Part shown: in pieces, positions 6,530 through 35,937 of the stretch
How the letters are laid out: each line of letters begins with the position of its first letter
Position numbering within the stretch: position 1 is the stretch's first letter
Source: Thermodesulfobacteriota bacterium
GTDB lineage: Bacteria; Desulfobacterota; WTBG01; CAIYCZ01; CAIRTM01
DNA: 64,000 bases
Assembly: GCA_028278025.1 (NCBI GenBank)
Contig: JANQFE010000073.1
Location: 1-64,000 of the forward strand
Reading direction: 5' to 3'
Program-made: the position numbers and the translations under genes
The notes under the pieces: model-generated
Told to the model about the DNA's origin: nothing
Databases searched by the model: none
Seen by the model: only the letters and a program-made list of their open reading frames with translations

Positions 6530-7195
6530 GTCTTTCTAAGTGTTACCTGCCGGTTAAAAAAAGCCGGGCGCCCCTGCTTTGCAAAAAACATGCGCTCACG
6601 ATACCGGGTTACATCCCTAACAAAAAGCCTGAATGAATATTTTTTAAGCTAAAGGTAATACTTTTCCATTATATGGGGCCCATCCCCTTTGGGGACAAGC
6701 AGAGCTTTTGTCGGGTTGACACACAAAACCTCAAAGCCCCTGCGTACAAGTCGTTGAGTAATAATATTCTGTGTATGCGTTTCTTGTGGAATGGCCATGT
6801 GCATACTGTATCATCTTGCACAATACTAATCAAGCAACTCTGAAGCAGCAGTTTTTCCCTTGGGTACTGTTCTGTTACCCGCCGGCGGATATGCCGTGAT
6901 AAAAAAGTCTTGATGCTTGAAATGTACTATCAGAAAGGGTACTATAAGGGCGTATGCTTATTCACAGGACATAATACCGGTACTCTGGGAGTGTTGCAAA
7001 AACCCTTTTAAAGGGGCTGTTCAAACATGTCCGGATAAAAGGCGTACGGAATCATAAGGAATGAGACGGGCTTTACCGTACCTTGCAATGACGAATGATG
7101 AGCACAATGCAACCCTTCGACTTTGCTCAGGGCCATGAGCCTGTCGAATGGCAGATGAACGTTTTTCAACAGTCCCACTATCACTATGTAATACT
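6530..7195. other. Long intergenic region before hypF
   Basis: 666 bases with no convincing gene. The only recognisable items are a 51-codon minus-strand frame (6649-6804, listed separately) and a hairpin at about 7114-7148, whose arms TTCGAC and GTCGAA enclose a GGCTCA/TGAGCC-like pair. That hairpin contains the CTTCGAC..GCTCAGG word also found in the inverted repeats at 9529-9636. Confidence 0.6.
6649..6804 (-). CDS. Small hypothetical frame (51 codons), possibly a remnant
   Basis: The frame reads ATG CAC ATG GCC and ends in TAG at 6649-6651. It contains TQRLVRRGFEVL, then VNPTKALLVPKGDG, which looks protein-like, but no ribosome binding site is visible and I do not recognise a family. It could be a decayed fragment of a larger gene. 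Confidence 0.2.
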   Translation of the reverse strand: MHMAIPQETHTQNIITQRLVRRGFEVLCVNPTKALLVPKGDGPHIMEKYYL

Positions 7196-9445
7196 ATGAA
7201 ACAGTCATTATCGATCAAAATCGAGGGCCTTGTACAGGGAGTCGGATTTCGCCCGTTTGTCTGGAAACTGGCCACATCGTTGTCACTGGCAGGCTGCGTG
7301 CAGAACAATCCTGATGGGGTACACATACGCCTGGAAGGCGACACAAACCGTATTAAGCAGTTTCTGGATCTACTGCAAACAAATCCGCCTCCCCTTGCAA
7401 AAATAATTTCAATCCAGACGGAAACGGCAGAGCTGCAAAACATGCAGGATTTTCAAATACAGCACAGCGAGACAGCCGGAGATTTCTCAACACACATTAT
7501 GCCCGACATGTCGCTGTGCGCCGATTGCCGCAGTGAGCTGCTTAACCCTGCCGACCGAAGATACCACTATCCTTTTATTAACTGCACTAATTGCGGGCCC
7601 CGGTTTTCAATCATTCAAAATCTGCCTTATGACCGGGCTGCAACAAGCATGTCCGTATTTGATATGTGTGCCGAGTGTGCGGCTGAATACAATAACCCTG
7701 CCGATAGAAGATACCATGCCCAGCCGGTTGCCTGCCCGGCATGCGGCCCCCGCATTATACCTATGCTGCCGGACGGTACAGCAATAGAGAGACCGTGGCG
7801 GGTTGTCTGGCAGGATGCCCTGGAGCAAGGCCGGATCGTTGCCATAAAAGGTATCGGGGGTTTTCATCTGGCCTGCAATGCCCTTGATGAAACGGCTGCA
7901 CACCTGCTGCGCACCAGGAAACAGCGTGAATCAAAACCTTTCGCCATAATGACCCCTGATCTTGACTGGGTCAGGTCTGTGTGCAGACTGGCTGCTGAAG
8001 AAGAAAAGCTGCTGACCTCGCGGGAACGTCCTATTGTAATCTTGAAGGTTAAAAACGATTTTCCGGCTCTTAAATATATTGCCCCCGGTCTGGATACCCT
8101 CGGCATCATGATCCCCTATTCTCCGCTGCATGAGCTGCTGGTTGCTTTCACAGATACGCCCCTGGTAATGACCAGTGCCAATTACAGCAGCGAACCCATG
8201 ATACACACAAATCAGGATGCTCTTTGCAAGCTACAGGATCTTGCCGATGTTTTTTTGATGCACAATAGAGATATTGTTAACAGATGCGATGATTCTGTCT
8301 GTATCAGTACAAACAATCATTTTTTTGTTACCAGACCGGGACGCGGCATAGCACCATTTTCGATTAATTGTAAAAACGCACAAGAGGCTGTTGCCTTTGG
8401 TGCAGACCTGAAGAATACCTTTGCGGTTGTCCACCATGACAGGGTTTCCATCAGTCAGTACATTGGCGATCTCGAGCATCCCGGCACCCAAAACATATTA
8501 ATGACAAATGTCAACCGCCACCTTGATTTTTTCAAGATTAAACCCCAAGTCGTCATTCACGACCTGCACCCGGATTATTTCTCTACCCGTCTGGCAACCC
8601 GGTTTGCACGAGATAAAAATGTTCCTGCAATTGCGGTGCAGCACCATCACGCCCATCTCGCTGCAGGTCATGCCGAGTATGGCCTTGCCGGCAAAGCCAT
8701 TGGTTTTGCCCTTGATGGTACCGGATATGGAACCGACGGCACAATCTGGGGAGGCGAGATCATGGTGTTTGACAGACAGCAGTTCCGCCGGGAACTTCAC
8801 CTGAAACCCGTTTGCCTGCCGGGTGGTGACATGGCCGTAAAGCACCCCCAGCGAATGCTTATTGCATATCTACATCAGGCTGGTCTGTTTGCTGCGGCAA
8901 AAGACTTTTTAGCGTTTTCACCGGACTGTGACGGAATCCTGCAGATGATCACGCTGGGAGTAAACTGCCCCCTGACATCAAGTACGGGCAGGCTGTTTGA
9001 CGCTGTCTCCTGTCTGCTTGGAATCTGCAATGTGCAAACCTATGACGGGGAAGCTGCCATGAGGCTTGAGGCTGCTGCATCACCGCATGAAATCGAAACG
9101 TTGCCCTACACGATTAACGAAAAAACCATAGACTGCTCGCTGATGTTTGCACACTTGCTTCAGCACATGCAGCATGAGGTGCCTGCCGACGTTCTGGCAG
9201 GACGCTTCCATAACATGCTTGCCGATATAATATTTGACTGTGCGGAGCGGCTCACGAAAAAGCATGGCAGCCTGCCGCTGGTCTTTGCCGGCGGGGTATT
9301 TCAAAACCGATTACTGGTAGAAAAAATTCTTACTCATAAAAAAGCAGCCGATCACAAACTGTTTTTTTGCTCTTATCCCAATGACAGCGGCATAGCCCTG
9401 GGACAGGCTTTTGTGGGGATTAGTAACGTAAAAAGTGATGAGTGA
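7196..9445 (+). CDS. hypF: HypF, carbamoyl phosphate-dependent [NiFe]-hydrogenase maturation factor
   Basis: About 749 residues, the usual length. I chose ATG 7196 because MKQSLSIKIEG leads straight into the acylphosphatase domain (VQGVGFRPF, residues 13-21). Two zinc-finger units follow: CADC..CTNCGP (108-133) and CAEC..CPACGP (158-183). Next come a YrdC-like domain (about 205-390) and a Kae1-like domain with HHHAH (483-487) and FAGGVFQNRLL near residue 700. HypF makes the carbamoyl-adenylate that is passed to HypE as precursor of the cyanide ligands of the NiFe site. Its last codons run into a 7-bp tandem repeat. hypCDE follow on the same strand after 333 bases. Confidence 0.97.
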   Translation: MKQSLSIKIEGLVQGVGFRPFVWKLATSLSLAGCVQNNPDGVHIRLEGDTNRIKQFLDLLQTNPPPLAKIISIQTETAELQNMQDFQIQHSETAGDFSTHIMPDMSLCADCRSELLNPADRRYHYPFINCTNCGPRFSIIQNLPYDRAATSMSVFDMCAECAAEYNNPADRRYHAQPVACPACGPRIIPMLPDGTAIERPWRVVWQDALEQGRIVAIKGIGGFHLACNALDETAAHLLRTRKQRESKPFAIMTPDLDWVRSVCRLAAEEEKLLTSRERPIVILKVKNDFPALKYIAPGLDTLGIMIPYSPLHELLVAFTDTPLVMTSANYSSEPMIHTNQDALCKLQDLADVFLMHNRDIVNRCDDSVCISTNNHFFVTRPGRGIAPFSINCKNAQEAVAFGADLKNTFAVVHHDRVSISQYIGDLEHPGTQNILMTNVNRHLDFFKIKPQVVIHDLHPDYFSTRLATRFARDKNVPAIAVQHHHAHLAAGHAEYGLAGKAIGFALDGTGYGTDGTIWGGEIMVFDRQQFRRELHLKPVCLPGGDMAVKHPQRMLIAYLHQAGLFAAAKDFLAFSPDCDGILQMITLGVNCPLTSSTGRLFDAVSCLLGICNVQTYDGEAAMRLEAAASPHEIETLPYTINEKTIDCSLMFAHLLQHMQHEVPADVLAGRFHNMLADIIFDCAERLTKKHGSLPLVFAGGVFQNRLLVEKILTHKKAADHKLFFCSYPNDSGIALGQAFVGISNVKSDE

Positions 9446-9498
9446 TAAGAAACAAGTGACGTAAAACGAGAAGCGTAATGAGTAAAACGTGAATAGTT
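9422..9498 (+). repeat. Degenerate 7-bp tandem repeat over the hypF stop codon
   Basis: Eleven consecutive heptamers can be read in phase, for example TGATGAG, TGATAAG, AAACAAG, TGACGTA, AAACGAG, AAGCGTA, ATGAGTA, AAACGTG. The hypF stop TGA (9443-9445) is the first three bases of one unit. Similar tracts lie at the ends of other genes in the window. Confidence 0.7.
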
Positions 9499-13089: not shown

Positions 13090-15243
13090 TTACGGGCAGT
13101 CAGCTTCAAAATCATACGATTCAATTTGGCTTTGAGGTATTACGATACTGCTGTTGTCGGTCGGACTGAAGGTACAGTTGTCATATGTGGGTTGCACTTT
13201 GTATGTCCCGTTGTCGAGTCCGCCAAATGAATAATATCCAGCGGAATCTGTATAGCTTGTGCTTTCAGGATTATACGTTCCACAATTATTTTTAGACAGA
13301 TCAATTTGAACATTATTTTTGACATCTCCCGTGACATACCCATAAATAGTATCAGCATCACACACATCACCGGTACCGTCTGTATCTTTATCCGACTGAT
13401 CGAAATTTGCATCACTAGGACAATTGTCGCAGTCATCCCCCACGGTGTCATTATCCGTATCATCCTGATTGGCATTTGAATCAATGGGACAGTTGTCTTC
13501 ACAATCATCTACACTGTCATTATCAGCGTCGACACCCTCCGGATATTCATAGGCACCTATATCCGGATCTAAACATTGTGGAATAAGAGTTCCCTCGATG
13601 TCCTCGTCTAATTCAACATCTTCCCCTTTATTAATAGCCGGCGATGTCGGCGTGAGATGAAAATCATCTGTAGCATTGTCGACAAATAATGGATCTCCCT
13701 CAAGACCATTGGCTTCATATCCTTGATCTTGAAAAGTATCTAGATCTTTTTTGCCACCGTCCCAATAAATATAATTTCCCTGACCAACGTAAAAGTTATA
13801 ATCAATAACAGGACTTGCTACATCTGCAGTGTCATGTTCCCACAGAAGATAGCTGCTATTGGCGTCTATAAAAATATTGTTTTTTATTTCAACATTAGAC
13901 ATAGTGCCATCATAGAATAAAAGCGCTGCAGTGTTTCCAGCAAGAGTATTGTTGTAAATATTCAAGCCATTAACATCTCCTCTGACGATTATGGCATCAT
14001 AAGAATCACCCACAACATTATAATTAATATCAGCGGATATTTTTACATTATTAGATGCTGCGTAGATATATATACCATACGCACCATTCTGGTCACTATT
14101 TTGTTTAGAATTAGAACACCAATTTTTATTTATGATATATTTAGTACCATTATCCGTCGGAGTAACTTGTATACATTTAGAAGTTTGTGACGATTTTCCA
14201 ACATCATTTATTATATTATCTGCAATTGTACTATCTGCATTTGCTTGACAGGATATCCCACTGCCCTCAACATTAGTAACTGTATTCCCTGTAATTATTA
14301 TATTAGAAGTCCCTGGTTTTATATCTATAGCGTCAGCATCAGTGCCAGACCATCTATCAAAACCATTCATAAAATTATTATTAGTAATTGTTATTGTAGA
14401 AAGATTAGACGTTATGTAAATAGCTTCAGAACCGAAATTTTCAACAGTATTATTATCAAATGTCAAAGAGCCCGTATTCGAACTGAATACCGCATGGTGA
14501 TTATATTGATGTTGGGTATTTGTTATATGAATGTTATTACAAGCGCTGGGAAGCCTGGGAAGATATATACTGGTAGAAGTGTGTAAAAATTTTATATTTT
14601 GAATAGTAATAAATTTTTTATTACTTAACTTTATACCATCTTTATTTCCAGCAATCATCTCATCCTGGTTGAGTATCGTTCCTGATTCATTATCACGCAC
14701 ATAAATGGTAGGAAAATCTGTACCATTATCAATATTACACCATTGTCCAACCGTTAAATCAGCAGGATCGTCAATGTCCGTAGATCGCATCCCATCAAGA
14801 AGCGTAGAATTATCTCGCAAAATCCTCATCGTATTTCCAACACCTGGATCTCCACCGCCAGATTTTTTTAAATAATATAAAGTTGAATCATTGTCTGATG
14901 CAACCCACTCATGACCATGCGACTCACCCACTGGTATGCCACCGTCGATGGTTCCATTATCACCGGAACAGTCACCACTAATAACAATCGGGGAGTTTGC
15001 TGATCCATTATCTCCCACTTCTAATGTTTTTTTATGTTTACCACATACATACAGGGTATCACCGGCACTAACGCCGTTTATGCCCCAATCAATATTCTCA
15101 AAGCCACTCCAGGCATCATCATATGAACTCCCATCTCCCGCACCATACGTTGCGTTATCCGGCCTGACATAAAAGTCACCAGCATAAACATTGTTAATAA
15201 CAAACACCAAAGACATGATTAAAACGAAAAGTAATTTCTTCAT
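13090..15243 (-). CDS. Secreted right-handed beta-helix protein with thrombospondin type 3 repeats
   Basis: 717 residues. A signal peptide (about 1-21, ending VYA) is followed by a pectate-lyase/NosD-like parallel beta-helix (about 90-520) rich in short turns such as ITNNNF, IIITGNTV and GLNIYNNTLAG. Then come calcium-binding thrombospondin type 3 repeats (DNCP at about 575-625) and a C-terminal carboxypeptidase-regulatory-like module (YYSFGGLDNGTYK). The protein carries 15 Asp-Asn-x-Ser/Thr motifs. Its C-terminal 140 or so residues are homologous to those of the next gene, also at DNA level. It may bind or degrade a polysaccharide; no catalytic residues can be assigned. A leader cassette lies upstream (15555-15862). 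Confidence 0.8.
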   Translation of the reverse strand: MKKLLFVLIMSLVFVINNVYAGDFYVRPDNATYGAGDGSSYDDAWSGFENIDWGINGVSAGDTLYVCGKHKKTLEVGDNGSANSPIVISGDCSGDNGTIDGGIPVGESHGHEWVASDNDSTLYYLKKSGGGDPGVGNTMRILRDNSTLLDGMRSTDIDDPADLTVGQWCNIDNGTDFPTIYVRDNESGTILNQDEMIAGNKDGIKLSNKKFITIQNIKFLHTSTSIYLPRLPSACNNIHITNTQHQYNHHAVFSSNTGSLTFDNNTVENFGSEAIYITSNLSTITITNNNFMNGFDRWSGTDADAIDIKPGTSNIIITGNTVTNVEGSGISCQANADSTIADNIINDVGKSSQTSKCIQVTPTDNGTKYIINKNWCSNSKQNSDQNGAYGIYIYAASNNVKISADINYNVVGDSYDAIIVRGDVNGLNIYNNTLAGNTAALLFYDGTMSNVEIKNNIFIDANSSYLLWEHDTADVASPVIDYNFYVGQGNYIYWDGGKKDLDTFQDQGYEANGLEGDPLFVDNATDDFHLTPTSPAINKGEDVELDEDIEGTLIPQCLDPDIGAYEYPEGVDADNDSVDDCEDNCPIDSNANQDDTDNDTVGDDCDNCPSDANFDQSDKDTDGTGDVCDADTIYGYVTGDVKNNVQIDLSKNNCGTYNPESTSYTDSAGYYSFGGLDNGTYKVQPTYDNCTFSPTDNSSIVIPQSQIESYDFEADCP

Positions 15244-15557
15244 AACCGTTCCTCCTTTGTTGGTTTATAGTTTCATTTTTTTACTTCAAAATAATTATCC
15301 AGCATGCTTGTATACCAATTGTTTAATCCAAAGTCCGCAATCCAAAATTTATAAATCTGCCTACCGATTACTGATTACCAGCGCTGCCATTTGCGTTTCC
15401 CTCGAACAAATCGCTATACCGTCAAGCAATGCCGGCCAAGCAAAAAACGACACTCCTCCCCTGTTTATTGTGTGGCTTTTCGAAAGATTGAAGATAGTTG
15501 GTGGAGATGAGCCCCGATGCCCTTCCTTTTTACCTCCTTTTCCTTACAGACAACCTC

Positions 15558-15598
15558 AAAACAAAAAAGCCTCCAGACCTGATTTCAGATCTAAAGGC
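15558..15598 (-). terminator. Leader terminator (attenuator) in cassette A
   Basis: On the minus strand the arms at 15585-15598 (GCCTTTAGATCTGA) and 15569-15582 (TCAGGTCTGGAGGC) pair throughout with G-U wobbles. They are followed by TTTTTTGTTTT. It stands between the promoter and the start codon of the beta-helix gene, so it should limit read-through into that gene. Confidence 0.75.
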
Positions 15599-15668
15599 AT
15601 AAATTTACTCAGTTATATTAATTGATTTGACTTCTTTAAAGTGCTCCCTCACTTTTTCTACCCCTTCT

Positions 15669-15699
15669 TACAGGATCAAAAAACTGTTTAATGCCTGTA
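15669..15699 (-). ncRNA. Conserved leader hairpin A
   Basis: On the minus strand TACAGG-C-ATTAAA, loop CAGTTT, TTTGAT-CCTGTA forms a 12-bp stem with one bulge. It is identical in the copy at 20242-20272. It is followed by a purine-rich conserved run (AGAAGGGG, then AAAAGTGAGGGA) and the terminator. It does not match any riboswitch class I know; calling it a regulatory RNA is inference from position and conservation. Confidence 0.5.
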
Positions 15700-15718
15700 C
15701 CCTTTTTCTTTAGATTCA

Positions 15719-15746
15719 AATATATTTTGCAATTATTATTTGTCAA
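15719..15746 (-). promoter_or_regulatory. Sigma-70-type promoter in cassette A
   Basis: On the minus strand TTGACA (15746-15741) and TATATT (15724-15719) are separated by 16 bases. The region is AT-rich, and the -35 box is identical in the second copy. Confidence 0.6.
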
Positions 15747-15882
15747 GAACATTATTATTAATATTGAGTTAAAATTGTTCAATAATGATTATTGTTTTTA
15801 GATAAAAGAGGGTACGGTCCAGAGAGGAAAGGAGGGACCAAACCCCTCTGAACGTGGATACCCGCCCTCTTTCTATTGCCTC

Positions 15883-23133: not shown

Positions 23134-23931
23134 ATGAAACTTAACTCCGTTATAACATTTACAACAGATTTTGCCAGTGCTGATCCCTATGTCGGCATCA
23201 TGCAAGGGGTGATTCTTTCAATTAATCCACAATGCACCTTCATTGACATCACCCACGAGATTACCCCTCAGGATATTATACACGGCTGCTTTGCCCTCTC
23301 AGTCTCCTATAACTACTTCCCCAAAGGAACAATCCATGTTGCCGTGGTAGACCCGGGTGTGGGCAGCAATAGGCGTGCGATTATAGTTGAAACTGACATG
23401 TATATCTTTGTGGGCCCGGATAATGGTATCTTCAGCTTTGTACTCGACAGCCCGGATGTTGCAAAAGTCACTGAAATCACCAATGCAGCCTATTTCCGGC
23501 CCTCTCCCAGCACCACCTTTCACGGCCGGGACATCTTTGCTCCCGTTGCTGCCCATCTGTCTAAGGGGATACCGCCCCAGCGCTTCGGCAGCCCCGTTAC
23601 CGATTATGTTCTCATCCGGACCCCCGAACCGGTGCTTCAGAGCACTGGTGCAATAGAAGGCGAAATACTTCACATAGACCGGTTCGGCAACCTCATTACA
23701 AACATCACCCGCCGGTTTCTGGAAAAGCACTTAGGTGACACTATAATCGCTGGCATAAATGGAATAAAGGCCACACGCCTGCTGCAAACCTACACACAGG
23801 CGGAAGATGATGAACTTTTCTGCCTGTTCGGCAGCAGCGGACACCTGGAGGTGTCGGTGAAAAACAAAAGCGCCCAGGAGATAACCCGGGCACGCAGGGG
23901 GGATAAAATAATAGTAATTTGTGACTCATAA
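23134..23931 (+). CDS. SAM hydroxide adenosyltransferase (DUF62 / SAM_HAT family)
   Basis: 265 residues, normal length. The N-terminal TTDFASADPYVG, VVDPGVGSNRR and TFHGRDIFAPVAA carry the Asp, Arg and His residues of the family's Asp-Arg-His site. The C-terminal domain (about 165-265) is the beta barrel containing HIDRFGNLITNI. The enzyme hydrolyses S-adenosylmethionine to adenosine and methionine, related to fluorinase. It is divergently placed to the exported protein gene and appears monocistronic. A heptamer repeat tract overlaps its stop codon. Confidence 0.93.
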   Translation: MKLNSVITFTTDFASADPYVGIMQGVILSINPQCTFIDITHEITPQDIIHGCFALSVSYNYFPKGTIHVAVVDPGVGSNRRAIIVETDMYIFVGPDNGIFSFVLDSPDVAKVTEITNAAYFRPSPSTTFHGRDIFAPVAAHLSKGIPPQRFGSPVTDYVLIRTPEPVLQSTGAIEGEILHIDRFGNLITNITRRFLEKHLGDTIIAGINGIKATRLLQTYTQAEDDELFCLFGSSGHLEVSVKNKSAQEITRARRGDKIIVICDS

Positions 23932-23952
23932 TTCGTGATTAGTTAGACTGAT
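23918..23952 (+). repeat. Degenerate 7-bp repeat over the SAM_HAT gene stop codon
   Basis: Units TTTGTGA, CTCATAA, TTCGTGA, TTAGTTA, GACTGAT; the stop TAA (23929-23931) ends the second unit. Shorter and weaker than the tract after hypF. Confidence 0.5.
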
Positions 23953-25259: not shown

Positions 25260-25638
25260 TTATTACCTCCAAGCTTTAAAACCTTTTTCTAACTCGCTTA
25301 TTACAAATGATCGGGATGTTGTCAAATAAATTGTTTTTTTAAAAATGTTTATCGATAACGAGATATTATACGAATTCTATATAGTATGGTGTTTTTGGCA
25401 AAGCGGATAACAATGTTGTTTTGGGGTTTTTAGAAGTTTTTAAAAACACACAGAGGAATTAGCGGTGGCAGTTGATGTTTGCTTTAAAAATTACATTATA
25501 TGGAAATATTTGTGCTTATTACCAAAAAAGAAAAAAAGAGGCAGCGCATCTTAGCACCCTGCCTCTTATAAGTTTTTCCCTATTGGCTTTTTTGAAATCG
25601 AAAACGTTTTACGCTTTACACTTTACGTTTTACGTTTC
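25260..25638. other. Intergenic region before the ppiC-type gene end
   Basis: 379 bases without a gene. It contains the terminator at 25522-25567 and the start of the heptamer tract at 25603-25644. The AT-rich right flank of the nucleotidyltransferase gene shows a weak hairpin (TTATT..ACAA at about 25300-25330) that I could not confirm as a second attC. Confidence 0.6.
25522..25567 (-). terminator. Intrinsic terminator of the PpiC foldase gene
   Basis: AAGAGGCAG (25559-25567 on the minus strand) and CTGCCTCTT (25536-25544) form a perfect 9-bp stem. The minus strand then continues into a run of T (TTTTTCTTTTTT). It is about 70 bases past the stop at 25639. Confidence 0.88.
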
Positions 25639-25644
25639 TCACTG
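25603..25644 (-). repeat. 7-bp tandem repeat over the PpiC gene stop codon
   Basis: Plus-strand units AACGTTT, TACGCTT, TACACTT, TACGTTT, TACGTTT, CTCACTG in perfect phase. On the coding strand these read CAGTGAG, AAACGTA, AAACGTA, AAGTGTA, AAGCGTA. The stop TGA lies in the first unit. This is the clearest heptamer tract in the window. Confidence 0.85.
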
Positions 25645-26523: not shown

Positions 26524-26684
26524 TAACCCTCTCCTTTCATAAAAAAATTAATTTAAGATTAGATACATAGTTAACTATTGTATTCATCAAACAAATCGTG
26601 AAACAATTTTAAGGTTACTATTCTTATCCTATACCCACCTCCCTCCAGGCAATGTATTCAGAATAAAGTATTTCCATTGAATCA

Positions 26685-26727
26685 GTTTACTGTTTTCTGT
26701 CACTATTCCCTGTTCACTGTTTACCGT

Positions 26728-26733
<6 letters not shown>
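26685..26733 (-). repeat. 7-bp tandem repeat over the dapF stop codon
   Basis: Seven plus-strand heptamers in phase: GTTTACT, GTTTTCT, GTCACTA, TTCCCTG, TTCACTG, TTTACCG, TTCACTG. The dapF stop TGA (26728-26730) lies in the last unit, so the tract starts within the final codons and runs downstream of the gene. Confidence 0.8.
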
Positions 26734-30376: not shown

Positions 30377-30411
30377 GTGTTTACTGTTTAACGCGTAACC
30401 CGTAACGTATA
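30377..30411 (-). repeat. 7-bp tandem repeat between argH and the lipoprotein gene
   Basis: Plus-strand units GTGTTTA, CTGTTTA, ACGCGTA, ACCCGTA, ACGTATA in phase. It begins 45 bases past the argH stop and ends 25 bases before the lipoprotein start, so here the tract does not touch the stop codon. Confidence 0.75.
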
Positions 30412-35436: not shown

Positions 35437-35919
35437 TGCAAGCTCAACATGTTAGCATAAGTATACAAACCTGTCTGATGTTAACTGATCGCTTCGCTTG
35501 AGGAGCATTCTGCCGGGGCAGAATTCGAGGAGCGTTGCGACTTGTTTTTTGACAGGATTACAGGATCAACATGCTTTTACCACTGGTATATCTAATCATT
35601 TTTTCATAAATTATTGCCGCAGACTGACGTCGACCGCCGCAGACCTTTCAAGCGGACGACCTGTCCGCTTGAAAACAGCAATCACTTCGTGATGTCTATA
35701 AAAAACCTTAATCCCTGGAACCCTTGGCACCTTGTATCCCCAATTCTTTTTTTGCTTAACAGCTTATTAGCTCAAAAGCTTTTATAACCTCAAGGCCAAA
35801 GGCCGATCCTCAAAGCCCGCTTGAGCGGGATGATTCTAATGCTTAATAAGCATTCAGCAACAAGAGTTTTCTTGTTCCTTCTTTGCTTACCAGTAATCAG
35901 CTCAACAGCTTTTTCACTG
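35437..35919. other. argB-argD gap with small palindromes
   Basis: 483 bases without a gene. Visible structures are the hairpin TCAAGCGGAC-gacct-GTCCGCTTGA (35648-35672), the palindrome CCCGCTTGAGCGGG (about 35816-35829) and a GACAGGATTACAGGAT word (about 35550-35566) that also occurs in part at 9519. No arginine operator is recognisable. Confidence 0.6.
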
Positions 35920-35937
35920 TCAACTGTCCACTATCTG
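35910..35937 (-). repeat. 7-bp tandem repeat over the argB stop codon
   Basis: Plus-strand units TTTTTCA, CTGTCAA, CTGTCCA, CTATCTG. The stop TGA (35920-35922) lies within the second unit. Confidence 0.65.

Follow-up and report, generated by a model that had tools for sequence, protein, structure and literature searches.

The window is a 64,000-nucleotide stretch of one contig from a Thermodesulfobacteriota bacterium, whose genome is a draft of 4.8 Mb in 170 contigs; among named relatives, unclassified deltaproteobacterial MAGs have the most similar ArgG (best identity 81%). At or near the 3′ ends of hypF, a SAM_HAT gene, ppiC, dapF, argH and argB, and within one long spacer, it carries tracts of degenerate heptamers (Table 1). 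Below, R denotes the strand with the GT core, which is usually purine-rich, and F the opposite strand.

Table 1. Heptamer tracts of the window, with the number of shuffles that reach the observed lag-7 identities, and S23 genes found inside operons elsewhere
Feature	Positions	Strand	Description	Lag-7 identities	Shuffles reaching
hypF tract	9422-9498	+	R-type heptamer array over hypF stop codon; gene 7148-9445, HypF domains	38/70	0/2000
Spacer runs	15325-15383	.	Short, degenerate, period-7; in 666-bp spacer 15217-15882	26/52	0/2000
SAM_HAT tract	23918-23952	+	Weak R-type array over SAM_HAT stop codon	12/28	127/2000
ppiC tract	25603-25644	-	R-type on ppiC coding strand; starts at stop codon 25639-25641	25/35	0/2000
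dapF tract	26685-26733	-	R-type array over dapF stop codon 26728-26730	28/42	0/2000
argH tract	30377-30411	-	Past argH; 6 bp from called 5′ edge of next gene	19/28	0/2000
argB tract	35910-35937	-	Short R-type array over argB stop codon 35920-35922	13/21	2/2000
S23 gene in cas or nrd operon	L273 9989-10348
S23 gene in cas or nrd operon	L303 1483-1851
S23 gene in cas or nrd operon	L299 1483-1839
S23 gene in cas or nrd operon	L268 9983-10351

When lags 4-13 are compared, 7 is the best lag for all seven tracts, and in six of them at most 2 of 2000 shuffles do as well, although these counts are optimistic because the tracts were chosen by eye. The SAM_HAT tract is not significant alone, since 127 shuffles reach its score. 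An earlier note, made from the sequence alone, had described such tracts and is borne out on several counts: the repeats are real, at gene ends the coding strand carries their purine-rich form, and in five of six cases (hypF, SAM_HAT, ppiC, dapF and argB) the stop codon lies inside a unit. The units belong to GTRAANN-like dialects; those such as AGTGAAC and AGTAATG contain TGA or TAA and, as 7 is not a multiple of 3, an in-frame stop follows within three units.

In syntenic relatives, the ppiC tract is missing at the same place in L139, L141 and L142, the dapF tract in the three relatives compared, and the argH tract in two. The proteins end near the same residue with or without a tract, which simply takes over the last codons. 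The SAM_HAT tail differs from that of the nearest relative, L139, and at the argB junction L139 has a different hairpin, a two-armed array of the R..F type. At 26524-26727 of the window the heptamer tract marks an altered junction: dapA directly follows dapF in L139, L141 and L142, and does not do so here. Scars of synteny breakpoints, a reading that dapF/dapA would fit, were rejected on the grounds that argB-argD keeps its gene order, as do the genes around a conserved Desulfobacterales array (L170:13431-13846, matching L168, L192 and L194).

Period 7 is a property of the genome at large. In a sample of 1.43 Mb of the 4.8 Mb (the first 20 stretches on contigs with matches, the remainder taken mostly regardless of matches), 28-pair windows with at least 20 matches numbered 47 at lag 7 and 18 at its harmonic, lag 14, versus 0-11 at each remaining lag from 4 to 20. 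Under a stricter score, 39 lag-7 tracts were found, 36 of them intergenic; other non-harmonic lags tried gave 0-6. The pattern TTYACNNTTYACNNTTYAC, which represents three TTYACNN units, matches the whole genome 31 times, and its reversed control 0 times. Four-unit matches occur in 30 of 98 genomes, comprising our own and members of its family, order, class and phylum, and the dialect varies by genome.

The earlier note had tied the arrays to gene ends and proposed a period-7 excess at stop codons. That excess exists. In the 1.43-Mb sample, lag-7 windows (at least 15/21) number 52, 130, 141, 64 and 10 in successive 20-base bins from −40 outward around stops. Around starts, however, the same bins hold 8, 2, 108, 98 and 7, while lags 5, 8, 10, 11 and 13 give at most 23 windows per bin at either edge. 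Period 7 is therefore in excess at stops and, to a similar degree, ahead of starts; the feature peculiar to stops is the reach into coding sequence. Among the arrays of the sample, 19 overlap a 3′ end, one overlaps a 5′ end and 92 are free. So the proposed link to gene ends holds for coding-sequence overlap, which occurs almost only at stops, but both kinds of edge are adjoined.

As the main rule, attachment to gene ends gives way to polarity. The R strand runs away from the nearest gene edge, whether that edge is 3′ or 5′. In our own genome, arrays within 20 bp of an edge are 13 R and 0 F at left edges, and 10 F and 2 R at right edges. Pooled over five sequence sets, 38 arrays point outward and 3 inward at 0-10 bp from a 3′ edge, and 20 outward and 2 inward at 0-10 bp from a 5′ edge; these orientation counts require an in-phase GT or AC core, so that 66 of 112 lag-7 segments of our own genome are excluded, and the stretches of G037 and G054 were partly or wholly picked around array matches. 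The rule fades past about 10-25 bp from 3′ edges, and the argH tract runs contrary to it. Where two arrays share a spacer, 57 pairs across the five sets lie head to head (R..F) and 2 tail to tail (F..R), an excess that holds for tandem, convergent and divergent spacers alike. The 57 pairs include both gene-less and gene-bearing ones, and the two arms often share a dialect (L194, L149, L150, L174). Cyanobacterial plasmid spacers away from S23 genes hold few arrays, with three R..F and no F..R pairs.

The first lead to a gene came from G054, where some R..F pairs enclosed pieces of an apparent four-helix-bundle gene. We collected copies of the corresponding family, PF05635 (23S_rRNA_IVP, S23, a four-helix bundle), from plasmids (22 loci from 39 matching plasmid records), viral contigs and the 98 genomes. 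A first profile built from few seeds found 8 places in the sequence examined and was not used for counts. The scoring of inverted repeats omitted one of the 22 viral loci (L287, with no open frame) and three of the seven places in our own genome (L263, which is broken, and L266 and L267, which are weak). Of the 52 PF05635-type genes scored, among which some loci are near-identical (L276-L278 with L297; L282, L283 and L285; L289 and L290; L302 and L305), 36 are flanked by inverted repeats at a score of at least 24 and 39 at a score of 20; of 78 control genes taken from these loci, none has such repeats at a score of at least 24. An inverted repeat at score 24 is lacking in the other 16 of 52; in L273 and L311 the repeats that flank the S23 gene are direct. 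With wider flanks, 39 elements reach a score of at least 24 (31 after collapse at 80% identity), and in these the best lag is 7 for 33 of the 39 left arms and for 35 of the 39 right arms; the median arm length is 4.4 units.

The two arms of an element resemble each other closely (similarity 0.83), while arms of different elements do not (0.10). Inheritance of the dialect along with the S23 protein was rejected: arm dialect shows no correlation with protein phylogeny (Mantel r −0.08, a value equalled or exceeded in 1576 of 2000 permutations). Examples include an S23 gene that has (AGTAGGG)n..(CCCTACT)n arms and separates the ribonucleotide reductase gene pair on a Nostoc plasmid, and one with (CGTAAAT)n arms in G054. 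R..F pairs in G054 and G037 are of the same dialect as the S23 elements there; the window tracts are single arms. In those sequences that were scanned, the cargo that recurs most between inverted heptamer arms about 350-450 bp apart is the S23 gene, and in all four elements that were folded the arms form the predicted closing stem. Besides the Nostoc-plasmid case, S23 genes were seen inside CRISPR operons: two of type I-D have one between cas6 and cas4, and one of type III-B has it between cas10 and cmr3. One report gives 18 S23 genes in cas loci (PMC3936711), and another describes the Avd homology (PMC10053308).

Comparison of filled and empty sites shows what is inserted. In phages, an element lies antisense between the decoration and capsid genes of L312, L313 and L319, and is not present in L314, L316, L317, L320 and more; the capsid proteins of the compared loci are 92-98% identical, and junctions were printed for 28 of 80 capsid loci. 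Empty loci (L314, L316, L320 and others) read GTAAAGGAGTATAACCATC followed by ATG, with 5 nt between the decoration and capsid genes, while filled loci (L312/L285) read GTAAAGGAGT-GTGAGGAAGGTTTTAGGGTGTAGGG..gene..CCCTACACCCTAAAACCTCCAACCTCAAGGAATCACC followed by ATG. In the filled form, the element brings a TGA at one end, which replaces the TAA of the upstream gene, and at its other end an AAGGA, which precedes the capsid start. On Nostoc plasmids, the filled site L269 compares with the empty L397/L399, an overlapping TAATG having been split, and filled L274/L396 with empty L393/L394. None of these four Nostoc empties contains either the S23 gene or the arrays. Because empty sites lack gene and arrays alike, the arms arrive with the gene. 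This also led us to set aside a telomerase-like extension of broken ends, which the outward rule had raised. Two-armed copies without the gene exist: in L395, R..F arrays without a gene occupy the site where L274 and L396 hold the whole element. At the phage and Nostoc junctions examined, there is no clear target-site duplication; the empties differ by replacement at the stop/start.

PF05635 is present in 62 of the 98 genomes: in 28 of the 30 with arrays and in 34 of the 68 without (Spearman 0.54), a co-occurrence whose significance is overstated in that the genomes are related to each other, and for which a single dialect served as the array pattern. One genome, G024, has 18 array matches and no PF05635. 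In the window's own genome the family has seven places, four above the cut-off and none on the window's contig (C148), and is thus far rarer than the arrays, of which 112 were counted in 30% of the genome. One of the seven, L263, is a broken S23 copy with window-type heptamers on both sides: the TGA stop of the upstream gene lies inside the left array AACAGTAAACAGTGAATGGCAGTGAAC, and the right array GTTTACTATTCAC ends just ahead of the next gene. As an inverted repeat its decayed arms score 19, not above shuffles (maximum 22). Another S23 gene of this genome (L262, 1471-1827) has AAAGTGCCTAAAGTT-type repeats as its arms, and similar repeats recur before start codons in the Desulfobacterales relatives L168, L170 and L194.

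The existence of an S23 element is well supported. A complete copy measures about 0.45 kb: some four to five degenerate heptamers, usually purine-rich, make up the 5′ arm, a PF05635 four-helix-bundle gene follows, and the 3′ arm repeats the first in reverse complement. Insertions fall between protein genes, in many cases precisely at a stop/start junction; the upstream gene then takes its stop codon from the outer end of the element, and the other end adjoins the downstream start, where in at least one phage case it brings a new ribosome-binding site. Loss of the gene from many copies would have left R..F hairpins or single arms, and we think it probable that the window tracts are such solitary arms, partly decayed, of a small IVS/S23-type mobile element. 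The stop codon would lie inside a unit because an element end lies at that point. None of the window tracts has a partner arm above shuffles within 600 bp, complementary ends that would form a closing stem over that same distance, or an enclosed S23 (PF05635) ORF. With L263 decayed as well, the origin of the single arms from S23 elements is therefore what we infer as the best reading of polarity, dialect and co-occurrence.

How such insertions might be tolerated is suggested by the intervening sequences (IVSs) of 23S rRNA. In Coxiella burnetii, according to one study, the 23S rRNA IVS contains an S23-family ORF enclosed by a 28-bp stem that is cut by RNase III, and heptameric repeats that vary among strains lie at its 5′ side (PMC4990558). 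Going by that same text, the two systems are alike in protein family and in having the ORF inside complementary, stem-forming ends (PMC4990558). By analogy, the arms of an intergenic copy are predicted to pair in RNA as a closing stem around the gene; RNase III may cut this stem and excise the element from the mRNA, which would leave the operon unharmed and the insertion tolerated. The differences are that 23S rRNA IVSs sit in 23S rRNA helices, whereas the window tracts and the annotated S23-element relatives lie between protein genes, and that the copies described here have heptamer arms on both sides and gene-less derivatives.

It is also possible, if unlikely, that the arrays arise on their own, by heptamer slippage in unconstrained spacers, and that S23 elements merely share the habit or land there. 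In many bacteria no long simple repeats are commoner than heptamers, and slippage linked to a 7-nt polymerase footprint has been proposed (PMC4679880). Perfect arrays do occur (L092 8321-8414, L081 4819-4912), and the window tracts stand without partner arms. Slippage, however, does not predict the 57-to-2 preference for R..F, nor the absence of arrays from empties and their arrival with the gene (L393, L394, L397, L399 and the phage capsid loci), nor the association of PF05635 with arrays. Quite unlikely, too, is a heptamer hairpin that is itself the mobile or self-propagating unit, the S23 gene being a frequent passenger in its loop. Two-armed copies with another loop or nearly none are common (G054 C48:32049-32123 and others; L395), but the predominance of S23 genes as recurrent cargo at the 350-450-bp arm spacing speaks against it.

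A further reading, which we regard as very improbable, makes the arrays working gene-end signals (all-frame translation stops, terminators or mRNA 3′ stabilisers): GTRA units give stops in all frames within 21 bp, the ppiC array stands between the ppiC stop and a terminator-like hairpin, and coding overlap in the sample is largely confined to 3′ ends, but abundance is comparable upstream of starts, the same outward rule applies at 5′ edges, relatives lack the ppiC and dapF tracts at the corresponding gene ends, and the window gave no match to any Rfam family. A translation-stop or terminator signal was rejected as main cause in view of the 5′ edges, with their like polarity and abundance.

The S23-element reading has to be placed among other known repeats. 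Cyanobacterial STRRs are tandem heptanucleotides in spacers, as are the arrays here, and a likeness in kind that the earlier note had drawn stands. MITE-like and REP elements are short, gene-less, palindromic and intergenic and derive from a gene-bearing parent, features that the gene-less copies would share. Their ends are fixed terminal repeats, in contrast to degenerate heptamer arrays, and where phage and Nostoc junctions were examined no target duplication is clear. To our knowledge, the heptamer repeats of bacterial spacers have been catalogued with no agreed origin, and we know of no established role for S23/four-helix-bundle genes, which are present in many copies across bacteria. In the literature covered by our search, in which subscription journals were mostly not included, we found no description of intergenic S23 elements bounded by heptamer arms. 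Another comparison is with the direct repeats of TAACTGA in Beggiatoaceae, Cyanobacteria and some Bacteroidetes, for which a role in translational regulation was suggested (PMC4679880). These too are intergenic heptamer arrays oriented relative to starts; as described there, they consist of one nearly fixed heptamer near starts, whereas we see degenerate dialects at both edges (PMC4679880). By our convention TAACTGA is an F-type unit and, as far as that description goes, it lies upstream of starts, as the outward rule predicts. The exact unit does not occur in tandem in the window tracts. Cyanobacteria and some Bacteroidetes carry S23 genes on plasmids.

This raises a broader and more doubtful idea, that the arrays of Desulfobacterota, Cyanobacteria, Beggiatoaceae and Bacteroidetes might all be arms of S23 elements, a single large superfamily so far unrecognised, and that a ring of five S23 bundles might read the array, with one heptamer for each protomer and some five in an arm. 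The closest solved relatives of the S23 protein, 2gsc and 2rld, have five chains each, and Xcc0516, going by the title of its structure paper, reportedly assembles from five four-helix bundles. That five protomers would face four to five heptamers is no more than a hint that the ring reads the array. If it does, the period of 7, the arm length of about 31-35 nt, the free dialect and the strict matching of arms would all be explained. More generally, linking heptamer repeats with S23 genes turns two problems into one testable question: is there an inter-gene mobile element whose protein binds its arms? Such an element would explain stops inside repeats and the altered protein C-termini at these junctions, as well as S23 genes inside operons such as nrd and cas, and it would account for a long-puzzling class of bacterial repeats.

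Finally, other repeats were seen along the way. A PF13366 (PDDEXK_3) gene, a family that we take to be GxxExxY, has TTGACAGGATTACAGGATTAA-type repeats on both sides (L047, G000:C62:27400-27738), and a stretch at 35552 of the window, in the argB-argD spacer, resembles these flanks. This could be a further small mobile cassette, bounded by short repeats of its own; the idea that PF13366 genes also travel between heptamer arms was dropped, since the three copies examined lack such arms. Just past argG in a Desulfobacterales MAG, tandem repeats of about 46 bp begin (L187 11204-11430). In its sampled stretches, G037 (70% GC) is full of dispersed period-7 repeats, with GGGGCCTTCGGCCCC-type hairpins beside arrays, and its GGTCGTC and CTAGTCT arrays are paired about 150 bp apart.
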